A stretch of 31,630 bases of DNA, taken from positions 1-31,630 of the IMG/VR virus record IMGVR_UViG_3300027754_003710. One strand, written 5' to 3'. Shown here in pieces: positions 943 through 24,317 of the stretch; positions within the stretch are counted from its first letter, which is position 1; each line of letters begins with the position of its first letter. Under the pieces are notes generated by a model. The model saw only the letters and a program-made list of their open reading frames with translations. It ran no database searches and had not been told where the DNA came from. The DNA comes from a virus. Position numbers and translations under genes: made by a program.

Positions 943-1865
943 ACATGTATGTATCTTACTAAGTCATCTACAATAGTTTGAACTGATCGAATACTAGTAA
1001 CATGATCAATGGCAGTACCAGCGTATACATGTCCTGTTGTACCAGTGTGGATTCCAAGCTCAAGGCTTTCCTCACTATTTTTACGAATACCAGGATCAAT
1101 GATTGTTTGATCACCCAGCAGCAGAGCATTCTGCTCGGTTTTTGAGAATTTAATTAAGTCTGATGATTTAGAATTTATCATAGCTTCTTTTGTAGTTATA
1201 CTTAAACAACTCTCGGTTGATACTGCAAACAACGTACCAATTGCAACAGCGGCCGCGCCTTGATTTATATAATAAGCTACATCGTTAGCAGTTCCTACTC
1301 CTCCATACGGTATCAATGGTAAAGTTGGGCTCAATAGTTTTTGTTTAGCAAACATCTCCGATACGGAATATGAGCCGGTCATGCCTGCACTTTCTTTTCC
1401 TTTGAGAGCATATGATTGAAACCATTCGTTTGCAGGTGTTGGTAGAAAAATCCTATCTATGATTTTTGTATTAATTCTAATGTGTTGTAGTGCTGCTCTG
1501 TTAGCGGGTGTAGATATTACATTTTTAAATATCGTTCCATCGATATCTTTATCTAGAGTTTTAAATAATTCAATATGACTAATTTTAAGATCAGTAAGCA
1601 TCTTTATAAATCGAAAATTACTTAAATCAGTATATTCAGTTTGTAATACAATATCCGAACTTCCTGTGTATTTTATAAATTCTTTTACTGTACAGTAGAG
1701 TAAATCAAAGTTATGTTTTTTATCAAGATTTCTCCAAGGAACCATTAGTCCTGGCATGATGCCAGCGGCATGACATGCAATAGCTAGAGGCAAGTCGCTA
1801 ACACCATTCATAATTGCACACATGATTGGGTAGCGACTTGGGAAAAATTTATTTAGATGCATCAA
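939..1865 (-). CDS. Nitronate monooxygenase-like FMN TIM-barrel protein
   Basis: A 308-aa TIM-barrel protein. The start (RYPIMCAIMNGVSDLPLAIACHAAG, about residues 11-35) resembles the first strand of nitronate monooxygenases (2-nitropropane dioxygenases). The C-terminal half carries the FMN phosphate-binding motif IPYGGVGTANDV (185-196) and GAAAVAIGTLFA (203-214). The end has the family-type HVYAGTAID. Known family members oxidise alkyl nitronates with FMN; related barrels include enoyl reductases of polyunsaturated-fatty-acid type. The usual E-A-G-G-H segment appears as KESAGMTG (157-164), so the histidine used in catalysis is absent and the activity may differ. The start overlaps the end of the TctC receptor gene by 17 nt. 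Such a gene is unusual in a phage. Confidence 0.65.
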   Translation of the reverse strand: MMHLNKFFPSRYPIMCAIMNGVSDLPLAIACHAAGIMPGLMVPWRNLDKKHNFDLLYCTVKEFIKYTGSSDIVLQTEYTDLSNFRFIKMLTDLKISHIELFKTLDKDIDGTIFKNVISTPANRAALQHIRINTKIIDRIFLPTPANEWFQSYALKGKESAGMTGSYSVSEMFAKQKLLSPTLPLIPYGGVGTANDVAYYINQGAAAVAIGTLFAVSTESCLSITTKEAMINSKSSDLIKFSKTEQNALLLGDQTIIDPGIRKNSEESLELGIHTGTTGHVYAGTAIDHVTSIRSVQTIVDDLVRYIHV

Positions 1866-7146: not shown

Positions 7147-8100
7147 ATGAAGAAATTATTATTAACTATTCTCTTACTGCCAAGTTTAGCACTGGCTTGG
7201 CAACCCACTCGCCCTATAACAGTTATCTTTCCAAATGGACCTGGCGCCGGCAATGAAATTAGTTTTAGATTTGTGGCAAGTATTGTAGAAAAGAAAACTA
7301 AAACTACATTTGCATCAGAATATAGGCCCGGTGCAGATGGTAATATTGCCATGAATCACTTCGCCACAGTACCTGCAGATGGCTATACTATTGCAGTGCC
7401 AGCTTGTCAGAGTAACTGGGTTACTGCTGATGTTTGGTATAGCAATATGCTAAAGTATGATGTTAACAGCTTTGAACCGGTGGCCAATATTGCACGTAGT
7501 CCATTGGCATTTTGGGCCAACCCAAAAAGTAACATCAATACTCCAAAAGAATTAGCAGATGCAATCAAGAACAGCACACGACCAATTGCTATTGCCATCG
7601 GTGGAGGTGGACATAGATTAGCAGTGGAGTACTTAACAGAAAGTTTAGGAGTGCCCAGCGACAGAATAGAAGCAGTAATGTATAAAGGCCCAGCACAAGC
7701 ATTACTGGATGTTATAGGCGGTCATGTTGAGTTTGGCGTAACACCGGTGGCTGTGGGCTGGCCTCATGTGCAAACCGGTAAACTAAAGTTAATTGGTATT
7801 GCTAACGAATTCCCGCTTAAAGGCTTAGAAAAAGCACCATTGATGAAAACCATTGCACCAGGACTGTTTATACACGGATGCTGGAACATTGTGTTACCTA
7901 AAGGTACTCCGGCTGACGTGCAAGCCTGGTACCATGAACAGTTTATACCAGCTATACGCAGTAGCGAAGCTGCAGAAAAGTTTGCTGAAAATATGATGTT
8001 TATTACTCCGGCTGAACATACACCCGACGGCGTTAGAACAAGTATGGCACAGCTACGCCAAGTATGGCAACCTATTGCTAAAAAGGTCAAATCAGAATGA
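7147..8100 (+). CDS. TctC/Bug-family tripartite tricarboxylate transporter receptor (second copy)
   Basis: A 317-aa periplasmic receptor with a clear signal peptide, MKKLLLTILLLPSLALA, cleaved before WQPTRP. The mature start WQPTRPITVIFPNGPGAGNE is the Bug-family signature, followed by EYRPGADGNIAMNHFA and PADGYTIAVPA. The C-terminal half has VEFGVTPVAVGWPHVQTGKLKLIGIA and LPKGTPADVQAWYHE, both classical TctC segments. It is closer to bacterial Bug proteins than the copy at 1849-2775. AAAGGA lies six bases before the ATG. No TctA/TctB genes accompany it. It is coupled by an ATGA overlap to the P-loop gene that follows. In a phage this is an auxiliary metabolic gene, probably feeding host TctAB transporters. 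Confidence 0.88.
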   Translation: MKKLLLTILLLPSLALAWQPTRPITVIFPNGPGAGNEISFRFVASIVEKKTKTTFASEYRPGADGNIAMNHFATVPADGYTIAVPACQSNWVTADVWYSNMLKYDVNSFEPVANIARSPLAFWANPKSNINTPKELADAIKNSTRPIAIAIGGGGHRLAVEYLTESLGVPSDRIEAVMYKGPAQALLDVIGGHVEFGVTPVAVGWPHVQTGKLKLIGIANEFPLKGLEKAPLMKTIAPGLFIHGCWNIVLPKGTPADVQAWYHEQFIPAIRSSEAAEKFAENMMFITPAEHTPDGVRTSMAQLRQVWQPIAKKVKSE

Positions 8101-8717: not shown

Positions 8718-8731
8718 ACCGCAGTCAAAAT

Positions 8732-8753
8732 AATAGGGACCGAAGTCCCTATT
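8732..8753 (-). terminator. Hairpin terminator of the tmRNA gene
   Basis: A perfect 9-bp inverted repeat, AATAGGGAC and GTCCCTATT. On the minus strand it encloses a C(UUCG)G tetraloop and is followed by ATTTTG. It lies just downstream of the tmRNA coding piece. On the plus strand the loop is CGAA and no T-run follows, so the minus orientation is preferred, although it may act both ways. Confidence 0.7.
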
Positions 8754-8754
8754 A

Positions 8755-9040
8755 GACTATTTGGTAACAAGGTAGTCAACCCCGATCAGGTTAAGCCGCT
8801 AGGCGTTCCTGATAAAAATGCGAGTCATTTGCATTTATTTTATTTACTTTTTACGACTATCTGTGTCGGGTAGCCAACTAATATACTTGTACGCCAATCG
8901 ATGCTAGTTCAGGCCCATCAGAAGCACATTAAGTTGGTATTAGGATGCTCTGGTCTATCCAACTACGTTCTAATCCAGAGTTCTTAAATGTACTTCTGGT
9001 GGACCTGGCGGGTACTGCCCCCGCTTCTTGTTCGCCGTTC
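8755..9040 (-). ncRNA. ssrA: Permuted (two-piece) tmRNA
   Basis: Read on the minus strand, the acceptor piece comes first. A T-arm (GCGGG/CCCGC, 7-nt loop, 9024-9008) abuts CAGGTCC (9007-9001), discriminator A and encoded CCA (8999-8997). About 80 nt of intervening sequence follows (8996-8917), with its own long hairpin. The coding piece begins GGGCCTG at 8916, pairing all seven bases with CAGGTCC including one G-U. Its D-like region has ATCGATTGG. The tag frame (8832-8791) is GCA AAT GAC ... GCT TAA, encoding ANDSHFYQERLAA, preceded by an A-rich stretch. P2 forms from AACAAG (9032-9027) and CTTGTT (8771-8766). Two-piece tmRNAs are known in alphaproteobacteria, some betaproteobacteria and cyanobacteria. 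tmRNA rescues stalled ribosomes and tags the peptide for proteolysis. Exact mature ends are estimated. The T-loop GGCAGTA is not the canonical TTCGANT. Confidence 0.88.
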
Positions 9041-9059
9041 TATTAATTAGTTATACTAC

Positions 9060-9093
9060 CATTTTACAGCAATAACTTACTTTGTATTTATTA
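9060..9093 (-). repeat. 34-bp promoter-like repeat, copy 1 (upstream of tmRNA)
   Basis: Identical at 30 of 34 positions to 14621-14654. On the minus strand both copies read TAATAAATA, one variable base, then AAAGTAAGTTATTGC and a TA-rich end. The TAATAAATA part resembles a T4-type late promoter. This copy overlaps the stop codon of the gene at 9091-9432 and would drive the tmRNA. Confidence 0.55.
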
Positions 9094-9432
9094 ATTTACT
9101 ACTGCTTCTATTCCGAATAACTGTGAGATTTCCCATTCTACATACTTAACTATATGATCAAATTCGATTTCTTCATTTATCCATTCGTACCGAAAGTTTC
9201 TATATCCTATCACAAGATTGTCGTAAAAATCCTGCTTAACTTTGCATTCTAACTCACGTATAAGGCGGTCTGGTCCCGACCAAACACGTACAAATTTAAT
9301 AGAATGTCCTACATGACCTTCATACCCATTTTGGCGATTATCTCGGTTACTAGTAATTCCGAAGCAGGTGCGAGTTACAATCTGATCAGTTGCATCATCT
9401 ACATAGCGATGCTTCCAAAGATAAAAGTCCAT
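9091..9432 (-). CDS. Small protein, possible GIY-YIG nuclease relative
   Basis: A 113-aa protein whose ATG lies one base after the stop of the ParB-like gene. The segment CFGITSNRDNRQNGYEGH followed by F-V-R-V-W and IRELECKVKQDF is reminiscent of GIY-YIG domains (Y-x-G-I-T, R, H, then a helix ending in E). The first tyrosine pair is not obvious, so the match is partial. If real it would be a short nuclease without an extra DNA-binding domain; otherwise it is an unknown phage protein. Its stop codon lies within the promoter-like repeat in front of the tmRNA. Confidence 0.4.
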   Translation of the reverse strand: MDFYLWKHRYVDDATDQIVTRTCFGITSNRDNRQNGYEGHVGHSIKFVRVWSGPDRLIRELECKVKQDFYDNLVIGYRNFRYEWINEEIEFDHIVKYVEWEISQLFGIEAVVN

Positions 9433-9433
9433 A

Positions 9434-10609
9434 TTAGTAGCCGGCGTAAGTTGTCATATGGCTAACCTCAGGCAGTCTGCAATTTTTACTACCAGACCAA
9501 TTTAAATAATCCATAACTAACATGGGAGTCAAGCATGAATCACTCCAGGAGTTTTTTATCGTATTACGAGTTTGAAAGTGTCCATGACGGTCCTTGCAAT
9601 CTTTATGGAATCCACGTGGACTACCGTAATTAGCCTGAAACAATCGATACAGGTCATCTTCGGTTTCTTGAGTGATAGCAATCCCTTGTTCACGCGCCGC
9701 TGCATAGAGACGACCAAATGCCAAGATAAATCCACCGTCGACTCCTTTCTCGGCCGAGTAATACCGATCGTGCCATGCTAATGCTCGATTTAAATCTTTC
9801 TTGGTATCAGCAAACAAGCTTTTAGCTGTGCCATGACCAGCGATATTATTGCAACCACTGATATAAGTAACCATGCCGGGTTTAGCATTATGCCCTCGCG
9901 CATCCGACGATTTAGCCGGAAACATGTTATTTTTTTCAAAGATCTCTTGAATTTCGAGAGCCTGCTTATCTTCTGTCAGCTCAGAACCATAATTGCGAAC
10001 ACCACTTACACGGCTACGATGTAGCCAATAAGCGTCAATTGGGTCACGACTTGTATTAAGAGTACGGAACAAATAATTTGCAGCAGCCTCTCCTACTAAC
10101 TTTGTTCCAGGAACTGTAAGTGTGTCATCATAGACTTTACACATAACTTTAAAATCTGGCTCTATTAACTTAGCATCTAATAGAATTTTTAAAACTGTGC
10201 TAGTTTGCATTCCATCCCATGCACTATACATGCCGGTTTCTGTGATGTAAGTACAGTTCACTGGTTGAACACACCGTGGGTCAAACTTGTCAATGATCTC
10301 GGCAATATTCTTCGCCCCAATGATATCACGCTGGATATCGATGTTTATATATTCTAGAGAGACAGAAATCATTTCAAATCTTCCAAAATGGTCTTGTTGA
10401 TAAATTTTACCAGCTAGACGTTTTCGTAATTTGTCCACAGCTTCATCAATTATTGTTTTATTATCAGCGGTAGACATAAAGGTCTTTACACGATCCTCAA
10501 GTTTTTCGTAAACCCCATTTCGTGGAGTACTTAATGCTTGATTTTTTTGTTTGGCAATCGGCGCAAATGGATTGGCACCACGATTAATAGTACGAAGTTG
10601 CAAAGGCAT
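9434..10609 (-). CDS. ParB/sulfiredoxin-fold-like phage protein
   Basis: A 391-aa protein. Residues about 95-150 (EIIDKFDPRCVQPVNCTYITETGMYSAWDGMQTSTVLKILL) follow the ParB/Srx layout: a basic-acidic F-D-P-R segment, a strand, then a W-D-G-M-Q-T that takes the place of the usual D-G-Q-H-R. A helical region and a C-terminal part (TRNTIKNSWSDSCLTPMLVMDYL) of unknown fold follow. ParB-like proteins in phages include DNA-binding and nuclease-like members; the altered motif makes activity uncertain. It has its own near-consensus sigma70 promoter 75-103 nt upstream, suggesting early expression, and is followed after one base by the small GIY-YIG-like gene. Confidence 0.45.
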   Translation of the reverse strand: MPLQLRTINRGANPFAPIAKQKNQALSTPRNGVYEKLEDRVKTFMSTADNKTIIDEAVDKLRKRLAGKIYQQDHFGRFEMISVSLEYINIDIQRDIIGAKNIAEIIDKFDPRCVQPVNCTYITETGMYSAWDGMQTSTVLKILLDAKLIEPDFKVMCKVYDDTLTVPGTKLVGEAAANYLFRTLNTSRDPIDAYWLHRSRVSGVRNYGSELTEDKQALEIQEIFEKNNMFPAKSSDARGHNAKPGMVTYISGCNNIAGHGTAKSLFADTKKDLNRALAWHDRYYSAEKGVDGGFILAFGRLYAAAREQGIAITQETEDDLYRLFQANYGSPRGFHKDCKDRHGHFQTRNTIKNSWSDSCLTPMLVMDYLNWSGSKNCRLPEVSHMTTYAGY

Positions 10610-10683
10610 AAAATATCTTTCTATTAAGTTTAATTACTAAAATAATGTGTAAAAATAAGACTTATGTTATTCACTAAGCAACT

Positions 10684-10712
10684 ATTATAGCAGTATATGA
10701 ATAATTGGTCAA
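10684..10712 (-). promoter_or_regulatory. Sigma70 promoter (TTGACC-17-TATAAT)
   Basis: The minus strand has -35 TTGACC (10712-10707), a 17-nt spacer, and -10 TATAAT (10689-10684), one base from the full consensus. It faces the ParB-like gene whose ATG is at 10609. Confidence 0.75.
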
Positions 10713-10754
10713 CCTAATTAATACTGTTTATAATCAAATAACACGACGTCCAAA

Positions 10755-10762
10755 CATAAATA
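10755..10762 (+). promoter_or_regulatory. Late-type promoter box variant (CATAAATA)
   Basis: CATAAATA lies four bases before the ATG of the HNH gene, the same spacing as the TATAAATA box of the gene at 4929. No Shine-Dalgarno is visible. One mismatch to the T4 late consensus. Confidence 0.35.
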
Positions 10763-10766
10763 AAAT

Positions 10767-11273
10767 ATGAAGCAAAAACATCATATTATTCCACTACATA
10801 TGGGTGGCCCAAATACTCCCGCTAACATAAAAGAAGTAACAGTTTTGGAGCATTCTCTTGCACATAAAAAACTATACGAAGAACACGGCAACTGGCAGGA
10901 TTATGTGTTATGGCACGGTCTTGCTAAATTAACCGATAACCTCGAAGCTGTAACTGTGTTTATGGAAGCTGGTGGTCGAACAGGTACTAAACTTGCGTAT
11001 ACCAAAGACAATAAAGCCAATAACGAAGAACTTAATAGAAAGATACAAGATTCTATTAGTAAAGATTGGACTGGTCCCAATGCGGTAATACCAGCTTTCC
11101 TTCCTGGCTGGAACGGTAAATCTTACAGCATAACCCATCCATCGGGTTACGCAGAAATTACTGAAGATTTACTGCAATGGTGCTTAGATAAAAATGTCAA
11201 CTACGATGCTTTTACTAAGGCTGCTCTTAAGGGTACTCGAACAACAGGTGGTTATACGATTAGTCGCGCTTGA
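10767..11273 (+). CDS. Free-standing HNH endonuclease (homing type)
   Basis: A 168-aa protein starting at the HNH core: KHHIIPLHMGGPNTPANIKEV (H5/H6, N20) and LEHSLAHKKL (H29, H33), the beta-beta-alpha metal finger of HNH nucleases. The C-terminal SYSITHPSGYAEITEDLLQWCLDKNVNYDAFTKAALKG segment resembles the NUMOD-type DNA-binding modules of phage homing endonucleases (T-x-P-x-G, then a helix and K-G). It stands alone on the plus strand, between a ParB-like gene and a scarred operon end, which fits a selfish gene. No intron boundaries are visible in the flanking genes. It might have caused the nearby recombination, but this is inference. Confidence 0.7.
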   Translation: MKQKHHIIPLHMGGPNTPANIKEVTVLEHSLAHKKLYEEHGNWQDYVLWHGLAKLTDNLEAVTVFMEAGGRTGTKLAYTKDNKANNEELNRKIQDSISKDWTGPNAVIPAFLPGWNGKSYSITHPSGYAEITEDLLQWCLDKNVNYDAFTKAALKGTRTTGGYTISRA

Positions 11274-11286
11274 AATACGTAGTTAA

Positions 11287-11441
11287 CTATTCGATTATTT
11301 CCATCCAAGTGTGCTGTGCCTTCTTGATAGCCGCATACACAACTCAAGAGCATGAGTGCAACCATCAGTTAACACTACGTACGGTGCACCTGTGTATTCG
11401 GCCAAAGCTAATTCAAAATCAAATAACTTTTGAAAACTCAT
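11287..11441 (-). pseudogene. Chimeric scar: DegT aminotransferase start joined to a DUF2452-type end
   Basis: The ATG at 11441 overlaps the stop of the DUF6165-like gene. The first ~36 codons (FDFELALAEYTGAPYVVLTDGCTHALELCMR) parallel residues 6-36 of the short DegT aminotransferase at 29803-30381 (LKFEQALAAYTGAPYAIMTDCCTHAIELCLR). Homology then stops and the frame ends at 11295 after 48 aa. In another frame, 11317-11287 encodes QHTWMEIIE and a stop, matching the C-terminus DHTWMEIIE of the gene at 14655-15128. So an aminotransferase 5' end was joined to the last ~30 nt of a different gene. Both parts are diverged from the intact copies, so the source was probably a related phage. It may still be translated as a 48-aa peptide. 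Confidence 0.7.
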
Positions 11442-11797
11442 TGTGACAGGTGATCTTTTTTAATTTCTCGCACAGGGCAATCTAACTTTTCTGCAATTGC
11501 GTTCTTAAGTGCTACACGTTTGTTGTTATGATCGCGGATAGCAATAGCACGGCGCCCAATCTCTGCTAATTCAAGTTCCGATTCACGTCCAGTTTTAAGT
11601 TCAGATTCTAATTCCCATATCTCATTGTGAATGCGTTTAAGATTTTCGTATTCGTTTGCAATCTTGGTAATGTCGATGTTCAGGGCTTGAGTTTTATACC
11701 ATACTAATTCTTCTTTATTGGCACTAGTCCGCTGAAATTTGACTTCAGCAATAGCAAGTCTGTCGATCAATTCAATTATAGGAAATGTAGGGTTCAT
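11438..11797 (-). CDS. DUF6165-like helical protein
   Basis: A 119-aa, highly charged, all-helical protein: IIELIDRLAIAEVKFQRT at the start, a long middle helix (ENLKRIHNEIWELESELKTGRESELELAEI), and ARRAI-like then KRVALKNAIAEKLDCPVREIKKDHLSQ. The S/P-I-x-E-L-I-D-R-L-x-I-x-E-x-K start, N/H-x-x-I-W, and A-x-K-x-x-I pattern resembles DUF6165, small proteins found beside glycan biosynthesis genes. Function unknown. Its ATG overlaps the stop of the P-loop gene upstream and its stop overlaps the start of the aminotransferase remnant, so the whole set is translationally coupled. Confidence 0.5.
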   Translation of the reverse strand: MNPTFPIIELIDRLAIAEVKFQRTSANKEELVWYKTQALNIDITKIANEYENLKRIHNEIWELESELKTGRESELELAEIGRRAIAIRDHNNKRVALKNAIAEKLDCPVREIKKDHLSQ

Positions 11798-12579
11798 AGT
11801 AAACTAATTCTTTCTAATGTGGCAGTTTTCCACGCATGATGTATAGAATTTATATAATATTTTGATACCGGTTGATTAAAACGGCCTTCAAAATTTAACA
11901 TAAACTTATATATTGAATTGCTGTCAAACAATTCAGACAATGCAATATAATCTCCACTAGGGACTTGCCCAAAATTCCAATCTTGATACCAAGATAATTG
12001 TTGCACATATTCGTTATAAAATTCGTCCGCACTATTTACATTTTTCCATAGCCATTGATTTTGAAATTCTTTCTTGTGAGATTGATTAACTGGGCGTCCA
12101 ATATCTGGTCGTTGGTCATGACAAATAACTGTGTTATTTTTAAATTCAAACAACTTAGAGAATATAAGTTTCTTATACAAATCCATATCATCAACATAGA
12201 TAGATATAAACTGAGCCTGTGTCCACCAAGCGGGTCGGATTGCTTTATGCCAGAAGTCTGGAATCATCAATCCTTTATGCCACTGTGGTTCGATACCGGT
12301 CATTTTGCTATTAAATTGTTCTTGAGTGGTGTTGTTGCCACGTGGCCAGGCTCGACTAATGCCAGGCAATGACCATGGTGCATCTATTTCTTTGCCAGGC
12401 CAAACTTCAGAGTTGTTGGGCAATGAGTTTATATACCAATCAATCGACTCCTGCTGAGTAAGCTGTTGACCACTCCAGTGCGCTACATTATCAAATTGAA
12501 AAAAACAAGAAATTAGAAACTTACCGCCTGCTCCTAATGGATAGTTAAAAATTAACCATTGGTCGGTATTATAGTTCAT
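11794..12579 (-). CDS. P-loop-like phage protein of unknown function
   Basis: A 261-aa protein beginning WLIFNYPLGAGGKFLISCF; the G-A-G-G-K-F at residues 16-21 resembles a glycine-rich nucleotide or PAPS-binding loop at the end of the first strand, as in sulfotransferase-like phage proteins. The middle is rich in Trp and Pro with no motif I recognise. The C-terminus (FEGRFNQPVSKYYINSIHHAWKTATLERISLL) ends in a helix with Y-Y and H-H-A-W. It is coupled by ATGA overlaps both to the radical SAM gene upstream and to the DUF6165-like gene downstream. Glycan or peptide sulfation is possible but unproven. Confidence 0.45.
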   Translation of the reverse strand: MNYNTDQWLIFNYPLGAGGKFLISCFFQFDNVAHWSGQQLTQQESIDWYINSLPNNSEVWPGKEIDAPWSLPGISRAWPRGNNTTQEQFNSKMTGIEPQWHKGLMIPDFWHKAIRPAWWTQAQFISIYVDDMDLYKKLIFSKLFEFKNNTVICHDQRPDIGRPVNQSHKKEFQNQWLWKNVNSADEFYNEYVQQLSWYQDWNFGQVPSGDYIALSELFDSNSIYKFMLNFEGRFNQPVSKYYINSIHHAWKTATLERISLL

Positions 12580-13604
12580 ATGTAAAGTGTTTCAATGTCC
12601 TTGGGGTTGTCTAAAATATTTTGTATTTTAATATTACTAATATTGGGTCTGCATGGAGCACAAAATTCTACACGAGTCTTGTTGTATATTTCATAATGAC
12701 GTTGATTCAACCAAGAATCGCGAAAGTCACCAGTGTCCCAATTGGCCAATTCAAACTGTGGATTACCCTTGCCCTCACAACAAATATATATTTTTCCATC
12801 AGCACAAAACACTGGAAAATGAAACATCTGATGACACTTTTTGTAGTTACGCGGTAGTGTTTTGTTCTGATTGGCCCAGTATGGTAATTGGTATGTTTTG
12901 CTATATTTTTCCAGGCGAGCCAGAGTTTGTTCTGAGATATTGTAGGCTTGGTTGTTCAAAATCACTGGCCGGAAATACAGCATACGTCCGCCCAGTTGTT
13001 TAACCAACTTGAACAAGTCGTTCATTGCTTCGTCGGTATCGTTTAACGGATTGATTAAGGCCTTGAAATCTACGTTGACGCCCGCCGCGATTAGGCCACG
13101 AGCATTGTCGCACACCTTGGTGAACAAACTTTTGGCGGTTAAACTACGCCGTATTTCTTCGTACAAGGATTCGGTGCCAGCATCAATGTCAATTCCAATC
13201 CAGGCCAATTTGCGTAATTTATCTACGTGAACGGTATCAAGCAGGCGATCTAAGTTGCTACCATTGGTAGTAATACTGCCAAGGAATCCTAGATCAATGG
13301 TATGCTCAATGACTCGTTCATAGTTAACTAATACAGTGGGTTCACCACCACCTGGATAGGTAATAGTATGTGTTGTTCCATAACTGTTAGGAGTGTGTGC
13401 TCGCCACGTGGCCAGTTGATCTAACAAGGCAATATATTCTGTGTATTTTTTCTGGACAGGTTTTTCAGCACGAAAGTCTGCACTGTTACAGTAGTAGCAA
13501 TCTTGATTACAAACATTGGTCAAATCGATATCTACCTGTGCAGGCAGGATCTTCATTGTGTCTTGATTTTTCATCCAATGGACTAGTTCGGCATATTGAT
13601 ACAT
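12576..13604 (-). CDS. Radical SAM enzyme with SPASM-like C-terminus
   Basis: A 342-aa protein. IDLTNVCNQDCYYCN (26-40) holds the radical SAM cluster ligands C32, C36 and C39. ITYPGGGEPTVL (about 101-112) is the GGEP motif for SAM binding. The C-terminal part has extra cysteines: KKCHQMF, PVFCADGKIYICCEGKGN and RVEFCAPC, the pattern of a SPASM/twitch domain with auxiliary Fe-S clusters, and G-x-I-Y-x-C is typical of SPASM proteins. Such enzymes modify peptides, sugars or other small substrates. A substrate peptide is not obvious in the window. It is coupled to a glycosyltransferase-like gene upstream and a P-loop gene downstream, suggesting a role in glycan or conjugate synthesis. Confidence 0.75.
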   Translation of the reverse strand: MYQYAELVHWMKNQDTMKILPAQVDIDLTNVCNQDCYYCNSADFRAEKPVQKKYTEYIALLDQLATWRAHTPNSYGTTHTITYPGGGEPTVLVNYERVIEHTIDLGFLGSITTNGSNLDRLLDTVHVDKLRKLAWIGIDIDAGTESLYEEIRRSLTAKSLFTKVCDNARGLIAAGVNVDFKALINPLNDTDEAMNDLFKLVKQLGGRMLYFRPVILNNQAYNISEQTLARLEKYSKTYQLPYWANQNKTLPRNYKKCHQMFHFPVFCADGKIYICCEGKGNPQFELANWDTGDFRDSWLNQRHYEIYNKTRVEFCAPCRPNISNIKIQNILDNPKDIETLYI

Positions 13605-14563
13605 TATTTGTATTGTTCGATTGTGTCGATTAATGTTTGTAGATAAGATTGACTAAACTCAGAATTAAAGAATTTTGTTTGATTGGCTACAACTCGATAC
13701 GACAACTGATTGTAAATTTTGTCAATGCCTTGTGCCATTAAATCATCAATGACAGCGTGAAGTTTGTCAAGTCTTATTCTTGCATTTTTTTCCGTGTCGT
13801 AATATTTATGGTCTATAATATCGTTGTAAATGTCCACGCCCAATTGTTTTAAACAATTCATAGTTCCGGGGTTGCTTAACATTACAAACGGAACTCCGGC
13901 CGCAATAGGCCTCCAAGTTTTTTCTGTTGTAAAAACATCGTATGGGGACACTGTAGTTTCTACTACTAAATGTAAATATGAGTTAGTTAATTGCGGTAAA
14001 TCTAACATTCTCATAGATATCACCGGCTCTGGCAGAGATGCTTTTATTTTATTCCACTCGTCCTTTTCACCAATGGTTAATTTTAAATCATCTGGCCGGG
14101 TGGCGGCATCACCTTTGATAAAAAAACTCATTGAAGTGTTTTTCCAATAGGATTTTTCCTTCAGTTTTAAAAAGTTAGCAATCTTATGTGGTCTTGCGTG
14201 ACCGTTAAGACACCCCAGTGAGTGAGTTTTCTCACTGGTAATTGCTGGATATTTTTTATTTGTTGAATCAATTAACCATTGCGCCCAGTAAGGAAAATAC
14301 AACATGCGAGGTCGGGTCAAATGTTGTGTATAGTCGTAGGTCAGTAATAAAAAATTTATATCAGTTTTAGACAACTGATCATACACATGTGTTTCAAACT
14401 TAAGATGATTTTCAGAAGAAAAGTTTATGACTACTAACTTATTTTCATACTGTTTGAAGTAGTTGTAATCAATTGTTAGATTTTTTAAGTCTATAAATGT
14501 ATCATATGGTTGATCAATATATGCAACTTCGAATGATTCAAATAATTTTTTGATTTCATGCAT
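13604..14563 (-). CDS. Glycosyltransferase-like protein (phage type)
   Basis: A 319-aa protein. The C-terminal half has VVETTVSPYDVFTTEKTWRPIAAGVPFVMLSNPGTMNCLKQLG, an exostosin/GT10-like donor-binding signature (E-K-x-W-R-P, then G-x-P-F-V and G), known in phage and bacterial glycosyltransferases. The N-terminal half (LVVINFSSENH, FLLLTYDY) is Rossmann-like, so a GT-B fold is likely. It probably adds a sugar to a surface or virion glycan; donor and acceptor are not readable. Its stop overlaps the start of the radical SAM gene (TAATG). Upstream is a copy of the 34-bp promoter-like repeat. It is the first gene of the operon ending in the aminotransferase scar. Confidence 0.6.
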   Translation of the reverse strand: MHEIKKLFESFEVAYIDQPYDTFIDLKNLTIDYNYFKQYENKLVVINFSSENHLKFETHVYDQLSKTDINFLLLTYDYTQHLTRPRMLYFPYWAQWLIDSTNKKYPAITSEKTHSLGCLNGHARPHKIANFLKLKEKSYWKNTSMSFFIKGDAATRPDDLKLTIGEKDEWNKIKASLPEPVISMRMLDLPQLTNSYLHLVVETTVSPYDVFTTEKTWRPIAAGVPFVMLSNPGTMNCLKQLGVDIYNDIIDHKYYDTEKNARIRLDKLHAVIDDLMAQGIDKIYNQLSYRVVANQTKFFNSEFSQSYLQTLIDTIEQYK

Positions 14564-14620: not shown

Positions 14621-14654
14621 CATTATAGTGCAATAACTTACTTTCTATTTATTA
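14621..14654 (-). repeat. 34-bp promoter-like repeat, copy 2 (upstream of the glycosyltransferase operon)
   Basis: Matches 9060-9093 at 30 of 34 positions. It starts one base after the stop of the gene at 14655-15128 and ends about 60 nt before the glycosyltransferase ATG. The minus strand carries TAATAAATAG near one end and TATAATG at the other, so it could serve as a late-type or sigma70-type promoter. Confidence 0.55.
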
Positions 14655-15144: not shown

Positions 15145-15219
15145 TGGTGGGCCCGGTAGGAATTGAACCTACACTCAATCGATTATGAGTCGACTGCTTT
15201 ACCATTAAGCTACAGGCCC
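15145..15219 (-). tRNA. tRNA with anticodon CAU (elongator Met or lysidine-type Ile)
   Basis: A full cloverleaf on the minus strand: acceptor GGGCCTG/CGGGCCC (one G-U), D-arm GCTT/AAGC, anticodon stem GTCGA/TCGAT with loop CTCATAA, 5-nt variable loop, T-arm GTAGG/CCTAC with loop TTCAATT, discriminator A, and encoded CCA (15147-15145). The 1-72 pair is G-C, so it is not a typical bacterial initiator. Sequence alone does not settle Met versus Ile2. The upstream gene ends 11 nt before it, so it is probably excised from a longer transcript. Confidence 0.92.
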
Positions 15220-22696: not shown

Positions 22697-23103
22697 TTGC
22701 CGTCGAAAATGCTATCAACACGAAATGTGTCGGATTCGTAGTCAGCGCCGCCGCGTGGGCCTTCCGAAAATACAACAAATTCTGATTCTGGATCACGATA
22801 ACGCAATGCATGGATTTCGTATGGAGGGGTCGATACTAAATCGCCTACCTCGGCCAATACCATCTGACTTGGTTCTGTAGATCCAACTGGCTTATACCAA
22901 TATTCCATCACACCTTTTGTCATTAGCATGTGTTGAGTGGTTTCTTTATGATAATGATTGCCACGCAATGCATGTGGATTACTTTTAACAATTGCGACAT
23001 GATGCAAATTTGCATTGTAAAATACATCAGCTATGGTACCACGATCATCTGTGTGGATTTCTAGCCCGGTGTTGCCAGGTGTAAAAACATTAATCTTTTT
23101 CAT
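22693..23103 (-). CDS. Cupin, sugar epimerase/isomerase-like
   Basis: A 136-aa cupin. DDRGTIADVFYN and the HALRGNHYHKETTQHMLMTKGVMEYWYKP block resemble dTDP-4-dehydrorhamnose 3,5-epimerase (RmlC) and the FdtA/WxcM ketoisomerase-like cupins, which share R-G-x-H-x-H. VSTPPYEIHALRY gives the second cupin motif histidine. Such proteins act on nucleotide-linked 4-keto sugars. It is translationally coupled to the C-methyltransferase (ATGA) and to the SDR, which supports a role in deoxysugar synthesis. Epimerase versus isomerase cannot be decided by eye. Confidence 0.65.
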   Translation of the reverse strand: MKKINVFTPGNTGLEIHTDDRGTIADVFYNANLHHVAIVKSNPHALRGNHYHKETTQHMLMTKGVMEYWYKPVGSTEPSQMVLAEVGDLVSTPPYEIHALRYRDPESEFVVFSEGPRGGADYESDTFRVDSIFDGK

Positions 23104-24317
23104 TGTGAGATAAACCTTGTGGTTGGGTTAATACTTAGTAGTGCTTTCTTTAGTGACGCACCAATATTCCAGCTTAAAATTAGTGCATAAGGATTTTCGT
23201 ACTTTGCAAATTCTTCATCACCCAGAATAGGAATACGGCTAAGTGGTGTAAATTTGCCTTGCTTATGCGGTGAACTATCTGTGATGCAATGTATCAATGT
23301 ATGATCCAATCTATGCCAATTTAGCCAAGTATTAGCTTTGGCAGCAGCACCAACCCCGATTATCTTACTCGACTCAAATCTTCTCATTTTATAAAAATCC
23401 TGCAACCATCTATCACGTCTTGCTTGCATACCGTGTTGCATTATAACATAGGTATTGGGATCAAACAAGCCATTTTGAGTTTCTGTTGTTATAAATTGTT
23501 GCACATGATCCGGAATGCTATCAGTTGGACCTTTCTGTGCTGTTACACGTATACTTCCTCCATGATAAGCAACATGGTCAACATGGATAATACGCAAACC
23601 TGCTTGTGCTAAAAGATTCCATGCACTCTTAACAGTGAAATAACTAATATGTTCATGATAGATTTGATCAAACCTACCACTATCCACTGTATCGGCCCAA
23701 TATGGGAGTTCAAAAACAAAAACACCAGACTCGGATAGCATTTCTTTAACACCACGGGCAAAATCCACCGGATCATTTGCATGATTGAATACATTGTTGG
23801 CTATAATTAAATCTGCACCATGACCAATATCTTTACGTACTTGTGTTCCTACCTCTCCGGTGAAGACGGCATTTATGCATCGCATACCTTGTGCAGTTGC
23901 AATATCACACATATCCTTAGACGAATCAATACCCAATGTTTGCACGCCAGCACCACCAAATTGATTAAGTAGATAGCCATCATTGCTGCCGATTTCTATC
24001 ACTAATTTATGTGCAGGATACGTTTCCTTTAGTTGCGCAGCATATTCATCCCAATGTGTTCGTGCGAATTCCGAATTACTACTGGTATAGCTATAACCAT
24101 ATAGATTATACCGATCCTCGGCATTGCTAACATATCCGACCTGTACTTGTCCTGAATTGGAATTCAAATAAACTTCCAAAGGGAATACCGGTTCGGACAT
24201 ATGAAGCTGTGTGGATTTAACGAACGTATCAGCATAAGCATGTTGTCCAAGATCTAATATCTTGGTGACACTTTCACCACTAATCAGATCGTGTTCAAGT
24301 AATCGGCTGTGAGTCAT
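23100..24317 (-). CDS. Sugar C-methyltransferase-like protein (TylCIII/NovU type)
   Basis: A 405-aa protein with the three-part layout of NDP-sugar C-methyltransferases. The N-terminal segment (VTKILDLGQHAYADTF, 17-32) keeps the L-D-L-G...A-x-x-F of the zinc-domain start but lacks the preceding cysteines. The SAM domain has LVIEIGSNDGYLL (105-117) and IIANNVFNHANDP. YHEHISYF (219-226) is the conserved active-site segment. The C-terminal domain has IIGVGAAAKANTWLNW and DSSPHKQGKFTP, as in this family. These enzymes add a methyl group to C3 of a 4-keto sugar. AGGAG precedes the ATG. Loss of the zinc ligands is odd and worth checking. Confidence 0.75.
   Translation of the reverse strand: MTHSRLLEHDLISGESVTKILDLGQHAYADTFVKSTQLHMSEPVFPLEVYLNSNSGQVQVGYVSNAEDRYNLYGYSYTSSNSEFARTHWDEYAAQLKETYPAHKLVIEIGSNDGYLLNQFGGAGVQTLGIDSSKDMCDIATAQGMRCINAVFTGEVGTQVRKDIGHGADLIIANNVFNHANDPVDFARGVKEMLSESGVFVFELPYWADTVDSGRFDQIYHEHISYFTVKSAWNLLAQAGLRIIHVDHVAYHGGSIRVTAQKGPTDSIPDHVQQFITTETQNGLFDPNTYVIMQHGMQARRDRWLQDFYKMRRFESSKIIGVGAAAKANTWLNWHRLDHTLIHCITDSSPHKQGKFTPLSRIPILGDEEFAKYENPYALILSWNIGASLKKALLSINPTTRFISQ

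Follow-up and report, generated by a model that had tools for sequence, protein, structure and literature searches.

The window, i.e. the whole stretch of 31,630 nucleotides (nt) analysed here (IMG/VR virus record IMGVR_UViG_3300027754_003710, positions 1 to 31,630), carries on its minus strand a complete circularly permuted (two-piece) transfer-messenger RNA (tmRNA) gene, which spans positions 8727-9091 when its promoter-like box and terminator are included. Using Rfam cmscan, the RF04321 tmRNA_permuted model was matched over its full length at 8791-9060 on the minus strand (105.8 bits, cut-off 47, E 6.5e-20). An earlier sequence-only reading had proposed a permuted tmRNA at 8755-9040 of this virus record; both the gene and its location are borne out, while the extent had been drawn slightly short. 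The alpha and beta tmRNA models singled out in that reading also score above their cut-offs: RF01850 beta_tmRNA has a full-length match at 8730-9124 (89.1 bits, cut-off 84) and RF01849 alpha_tmRNA a match at 8751-9105 (73.1 bits, cut-off 50). ARAGORN made no call for the window tmRNA at its default threshold and found it once the threshold was relaxed, reading the tag as ANDSHFYQERLAA; members of this group escape tmRNA finders run at default settings. No similarity match was obtained when the window tmRNA and that of a sister phage (described below) were used as DNA queries against GenBank phages and plasmids, and a DNA pattern for the tmRNA 3' end found no match among viral contigs.

Anatomy of the permuted tmRNA gene

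Following the minus strand, the gene is preceded by an ATAAATA box resembling a late promoter (9085-9091), putatively an active one. The acceptor piece (8997-9060), delimited by the RF04321 alignment and a stem parse, comprises a P2 strand, the T arm, the acceptor 3' strand and an encoded ACCA. The T arm (9008-9024, GCGGG-GGCAGTA-CCCGC, with G54, G55, C56 and G58) forms 5/5 pairs, and the acceptor 3' strand CAGGTCC (9001-9007) forms 7/7 pairs with GGGCCTG (8910-8916), placed by the same alignment and parse at the 5' end of the coding piece. The alanine identity pair G3-U70 is among these, and the ACCA end (8997-9000) stands directly after the acceptor 3' strand. Between the two pieces, an intervening sequence of 80 nt (8917-8996) continues the acceptor stem as a long hairpin, the stem and intervening segment together having a predicted fold of -39.7 kcal/mol. 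The coding piece contains the D-loop region AGCATCGAT (8890-8909) with A18 and G19, and a tag frame (8791-8832) that runs from a GCA resume codon to TAA and encodes ANDSHFYQERLAA, as read by relaxed ARAGORN and aligned through the stop by RF04321. The P2 duplex between the pieces has an energy of -18.6 kcal/mol in the window, and P2 is aligned in the RF04321 covariance model. An intrinsic terminator read from the sequence, AATAGGGAC-TTCG-GTCCCTATT followed by a T run, lies at 8727-8753. The acceptor piece ahead of the coding piece, the 7-bp acceptor stem closing across the gap, the LAA-TAA end of the frame and the T-loop GGCAGTA are all as the sequence-only reading described them.

With respect to the alpha and beta classes, the window gene appears intermediate in its sequence: the elbow formed by T-loop and D-loop (GGCAGTA/AG) is of alpha type as opposed to the beta-type UUC/GG, and the beta model scores slightly ahead of the alpha model. 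The only clear bacterial beta-type gene that we met reached 251.5 bits on RF01850, compared with 89.1 for the window gene.

Conservation and elbow pairing across the phage clade

Relatives were gathered using the 405-amino-acid protein encoded at window 23100-24317 as the query, yielding 80 phage loci. RF04321 was above its cut-off in 43 of the 80 related phage records, each searched whole, and in 8 of 10 further records, eight of these ten having been fetched by a tmRNA pattern. The acceptor stem is unbroken in all 31 distinct clade tmRNAs, with pairs 1-3 invariant as G-C, G-C and G-U. The stem parser demanded at least 6 acceptor pairs and at least 4 T-stem pairs, so this pairing is partly selected; the independent evidence lies in the Rfam matches and in compensatory changes, with both sides of acceptor pairs 4-7 and T-stem pairs 49-52 changing together among the 31 tmRNAs. 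A hairpin of the intervening segment was predicted in all 31 when folded. A 236-kb relative (G024; loci L118 and L127) has two permuted tmRNA genes (118.4 and 104.3 bits), and related record L156 has a standard one-piece tmRNA instead (1222-1562, plus strand, RF00023, 106.7 bits).

The clade elbow obeys a strict rule, whereby G55 always occurs with A18 (18/18) and U55 always with G18 (13/13), i.e. 31 of 31 without exception; T-loop positions 54/58 are either U-A or G-G. A bacterial genome sample not selected by T-loop contained 26 genes with G55/A18 and one beta-type gene with UUC/GG, two other parses not being valid tmRNA reads. Bacterial genes retrieved by T-loop pattern kept the rule in 101 of 101 cases, and other phage contigs retrieved by the same pattern kept it in 91 of 99, with seven exceptions of G55/G18. 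Alphaproteobacterial tmRNA normally combines a GGCAGTA or GGCGGTA T-loop with an AG D-loop; as early as 2005, a comparative study recorded a G at these T-loop positions in Caulobacter and GG in the mitochondrion of Reclinomonas (PMC1168896). The window T-loop, which the sequence-only reading had called non-canonical, is thus the ordinary alphaproteobacterial form, G55 being coupled with the D-loop A18, as opposed to a phage invention. A degenerate T-loop as a sign of decay was likewise ruled out, the changes being coordinated and standard in alphaproteobacteria. The clade offers dozens of natural tRNA-like domains in which closely related members differ in having G18-U55 or A18-G55, a resource for studying how the tRNA elbow is built.

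Cassette exchange, tag families and a late-promoter-like box

The sister phage IMGVR_UViG_3300009151_005675 (loci L001 and L394) matches the window at 92-97% identity across 7.0-8.7 kb, 14.6-18 kb and 18-27 kb, and its tmRNA, with tag ANDELFAVAA, sits between the same neighbours. The two tmRNA bodies share only 69-71% identity, in contrast to the 92-97% of the flanks. Common to both phages are the box and leader (window 9065-9093, minus strand; 28/29 bases identical to L001 19172-19200) and the terminator (90% over 52 bp; window 8722-8772). A third tmRNA, from L097, follows that of the sister almost exactly between the acceptor piece and tag codon 6 and then continues with the window-type 3' module, which in the window (8778-8817, minus strand) consists of FYQERLAA, the stop and CCTGATCGGGGTT and matches L097 at 39/40 bases. 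Recombination between tmRNA alleles is the simplest reading of this three-way pattern, and the gene behaves as an exchangeable cassette in the clade. Since the clade holds numerous divergent tmRNAs among which recombination occurs, a recent single capture of a host gene, one of the origins suggested by the sequence-only reading, is not the simplest account.

Adjacent to the window tmRNA, approximately 5.5 kb of genes (9091-14563) absent from the sister separate it from the DUF2452 gene. The box/leader sequence recurs at 14652 and the DUF2452 3' end at approximately 11286-11340, inside or near this region, and it looks as if genes have been inserted repeatedly between the tmRNA and DUF2452 genes. 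Four phage permuted tmRNA genes (L126, 1160-1590, plus strand; L155, L193 and L276, minus strand) hold a complete protein open reading frame (ORF) of approximately 120-146 amino acids between the two pieces, their tags remaining intact; none was present in the bacterial loci read in this analysis. The inter-piece ORF of L193 is a homing/HNH endonuclease (phrog_655, E 3.5e-14). Near the window tmRNA, the ORF at 10767-11273 is homing endonuclease-like (phrog_655, E 2.8e-4) and similar in kind.

The window tag ANDSHFYQERLAA keeps an AND start and an LAA end around the interior SHFYQER. LAA is the commonest ending among sampled bacterial tags (66/99), a set that is alphaproteobacterial; the bacterial genome samples held almost no beta-type tmRNA. 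SHFYQER is shared, in part, with only one other phage (FYQERLAA in L097), and a codon pattern for FYQERLAA matched one viral contig. Among the 30 clade tmRNAs whose tag could be read, 12 carry a distinct tag of 27-31 residues ending in LAV or FAV, as do none of the 99 bacterial ones. Its family pattern is A[NK]..[TK]GEVTVSGKN[VI]KFSAR...LAV/FAV, exemplified by AKTSTGEVTVSGKNVKFSARSAQRQSLAV (L099, L103, L111, L113, L119, L120, L136, L140, L143, L146, L147 and L430-L499). A codon pattern for the core matched 77 viral contigs, from which 44 distinct tags were read; the tRNA-like domain was readable in 69 of the 77, with both alpha and beta elbow types represented. As this pattern fixes the core residues, the clade set obtained with the RNA model is the proper basis for judging conservation of the long tag. 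Comparison of long-tag codon positions gave 56 synonymous versus 268 other codon differences. For the long tag, tblastn against GenBank phages gave nothing, and a search of 399 genomes from one bacterial order that is not a known host was likewise negative.

The ATAAATA box occurs upstream of 14 of 27 clade tmRNAs, whereas control windows drawn from these loci predict 0.68. For other phage tmRNAs the figure is 43 of 98 against an expectation of 1.34, and for bacterial tmRNAs 1 of 100 against 0.45. Enrichment of the motif across the whole window was ruled out (8 found, 17 expected); seven of the eight copies are intergenic, and only the placement before genes is notable. Among large relatives, 6 of 18 encode the T4-type capsid protein Gp23. 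Taken together, the enrichment before phage tmRNAs, the presence of Gp23 in relatives and the intergenic placement in the window make a T4-type late promoter (TATAAATA-type box) upstream of the window tmRNA likely. Upstream of some phage tmRNAs, at L110 (approximately 1463-1500) and similar loci, a good sigma-70 promoter (TTGACC-17-TATAAT) has ATAAATA within its 17-nt spacer, which looks like an overlap of early and late promoters.

SmpB was searched for in 21 phage records and none was found, so the tmRNA should use host SmpB. A TctC/Bug-type substrate-binding protein gene in the window (7147-8100, PF03401, E 8.4e-23), at approximately 30% identity, hints weakly at Burkholderiales or rhizobia as host. 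The window also contains a tRNA-Met (CAT) gene at 15145-15219, and many relatives have a tRNA gene several hundred bases upstream of the tmRNA.

Proposed function and relation to known tmRNAs

We consider it very likely that the window harbours a functional circularly permuted tmRNA gene from a freshwater phage related to T4. The RNA anatomy, conserved pairing, box, terminator and cassette exchange are legible in the sequences themselves; what we infer is when the gene is transcribed, that its RNA is cut into two pieces and charged, and that tagging and degradation follow. Transcription of the gene would probably start at its own ATAAATA promoter during the late phase of infection and end at the intrinsic terminator. 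Host tRNA-processing enzymes would remove the inter-piece hairpin to yield the acceptor and coding pieces, which would stay joined via the acceptor stem and P2. Host alanyl-tRNA synthetase (AlaRS), EF-Tu and SmpB would employ the phage tmRNA to rescue stalled ribosomes, and (A)ANDSHFYQERLAA added to unfinished proteins would constitute an LAA-type degradation tag for host proteases.

Several observations weigh against a working gene of this kind. Its beta score is moderate (89 against a cut-off of 84, with 251 for the clear bacterial beta-type gene), which makes partial degeneration conceivable, and ATAAATA falls short of expectation over the window as a whole. Most of the related records are contig fragments. 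The sequence-only reading had made its identification hinge on acceptor and P2 pairing being conserved in related phages; the acceptor half of this is upheld by the compensatory changes, while the P2 duplex energy averages -15.4 across the clade versus -14.0 when shuffled (standard deviation 3.7), with no clear excess. As the clade energies are only slightly below those of shuffles, P2 rests mainly on the covariance model.

The sequence-only reading had also suggested a phage variant that redirects tagging; in such a variant, the unusual interior SHFYQER would bring the tagged protein before a different protease or adaptor. The limited sharing of this interior would fit such a role, as would the long LAV/FAV tags of many relatives, which indicate that tag function may differ within the clade. 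Given that the window tag retains both the AND start and the commonest bacterial ending, redirection is without support for this particular gene and we regard it as unlikely. A captured host tmRNA in decay, its function lost, is less probable still: the failure of default ARAGORN, the T-loop and D-loop off the classical consensus and the moderate beta score could be read in this way, yet the loop changes are the coordinated alphaproteobacterial ones, and all stems, ACCA, G3-U70, the resume codon and the stop are intact, with promoter box and terminator kept. Equally improbable is a decoy role, in which the RNA would capture host SmpB and so shut off trans-translation in the host, a role suggested for a tRNA-like-domain-only RNA in mycobacteriophage DS6A (PMC4131195, PMC11915505), since the complete tag frame and coding piece retained here would be superfluous for a decoy.

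Beyond the working tmRNA of the window, a broader view of the clade can be offered tentatively, as possible though short of probable. Its tmRNA may be a modular, late-expressed viral cassette in which alpha and beta tRNA-like domains are freely combined with tags, including a long family that diverts products from LAA proteases, the gap between the pieces serving as an insertion site for protein genes. Three questions become accessible to testing in this clade: the reason for tmRNA carriage by T4-like phages that lack SmpB, the stage of infection at which the tmRNA acts, and whether phages retarget tagging.

The one-piece tmRNA of Bxz1-type mycobacteriophages is not permuted, unlike the window gene. 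Such mycobacteriophages nevertheless share with the window a phage-carried tmRNA (PMC4131195). Phage carriage of a two-piece tmRNA, from which the sequence-only reading argued for host-gene capture or redirected tagging, was already published in 2022, when two-piece tmRNA was described in aquatic phages, with tmRNA in 402 phages and 53 of 133 unique structures called two-piece (PMC9004378). Bacterial permuted genes were the basis for RF04321, whose source database contains 79 tmRNA sequences from phages (PMC11915505). The closest parallels are the OM43 phage Melnitz and the pelagimyophages, aquatic myophages whose permuted tmRNA likewise needs host machinery and is thought to be bacterial in origin (PMC9004378); the window gene differs in its late-promoter-like box, its best class score as beta type and its tag. 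Alphaproteobacterial permuted tmRNA (RF01849) shares the GGCAGTA T-loop and AG D-loop, and the window passes the cut-off of that model, in contrast to its higher score on the beta model and to the absence of ATAAATA in 99 of 100 bacterial genes compared. Betaproteobacterial permuted tmRNA (RF01850) is matched over its full length, whereas the window elbow is of alpha type and the score lies far under that of the clear beta-type gene. To the phage two-piece tmRNAs already known, the window gene adds one with a new tag.
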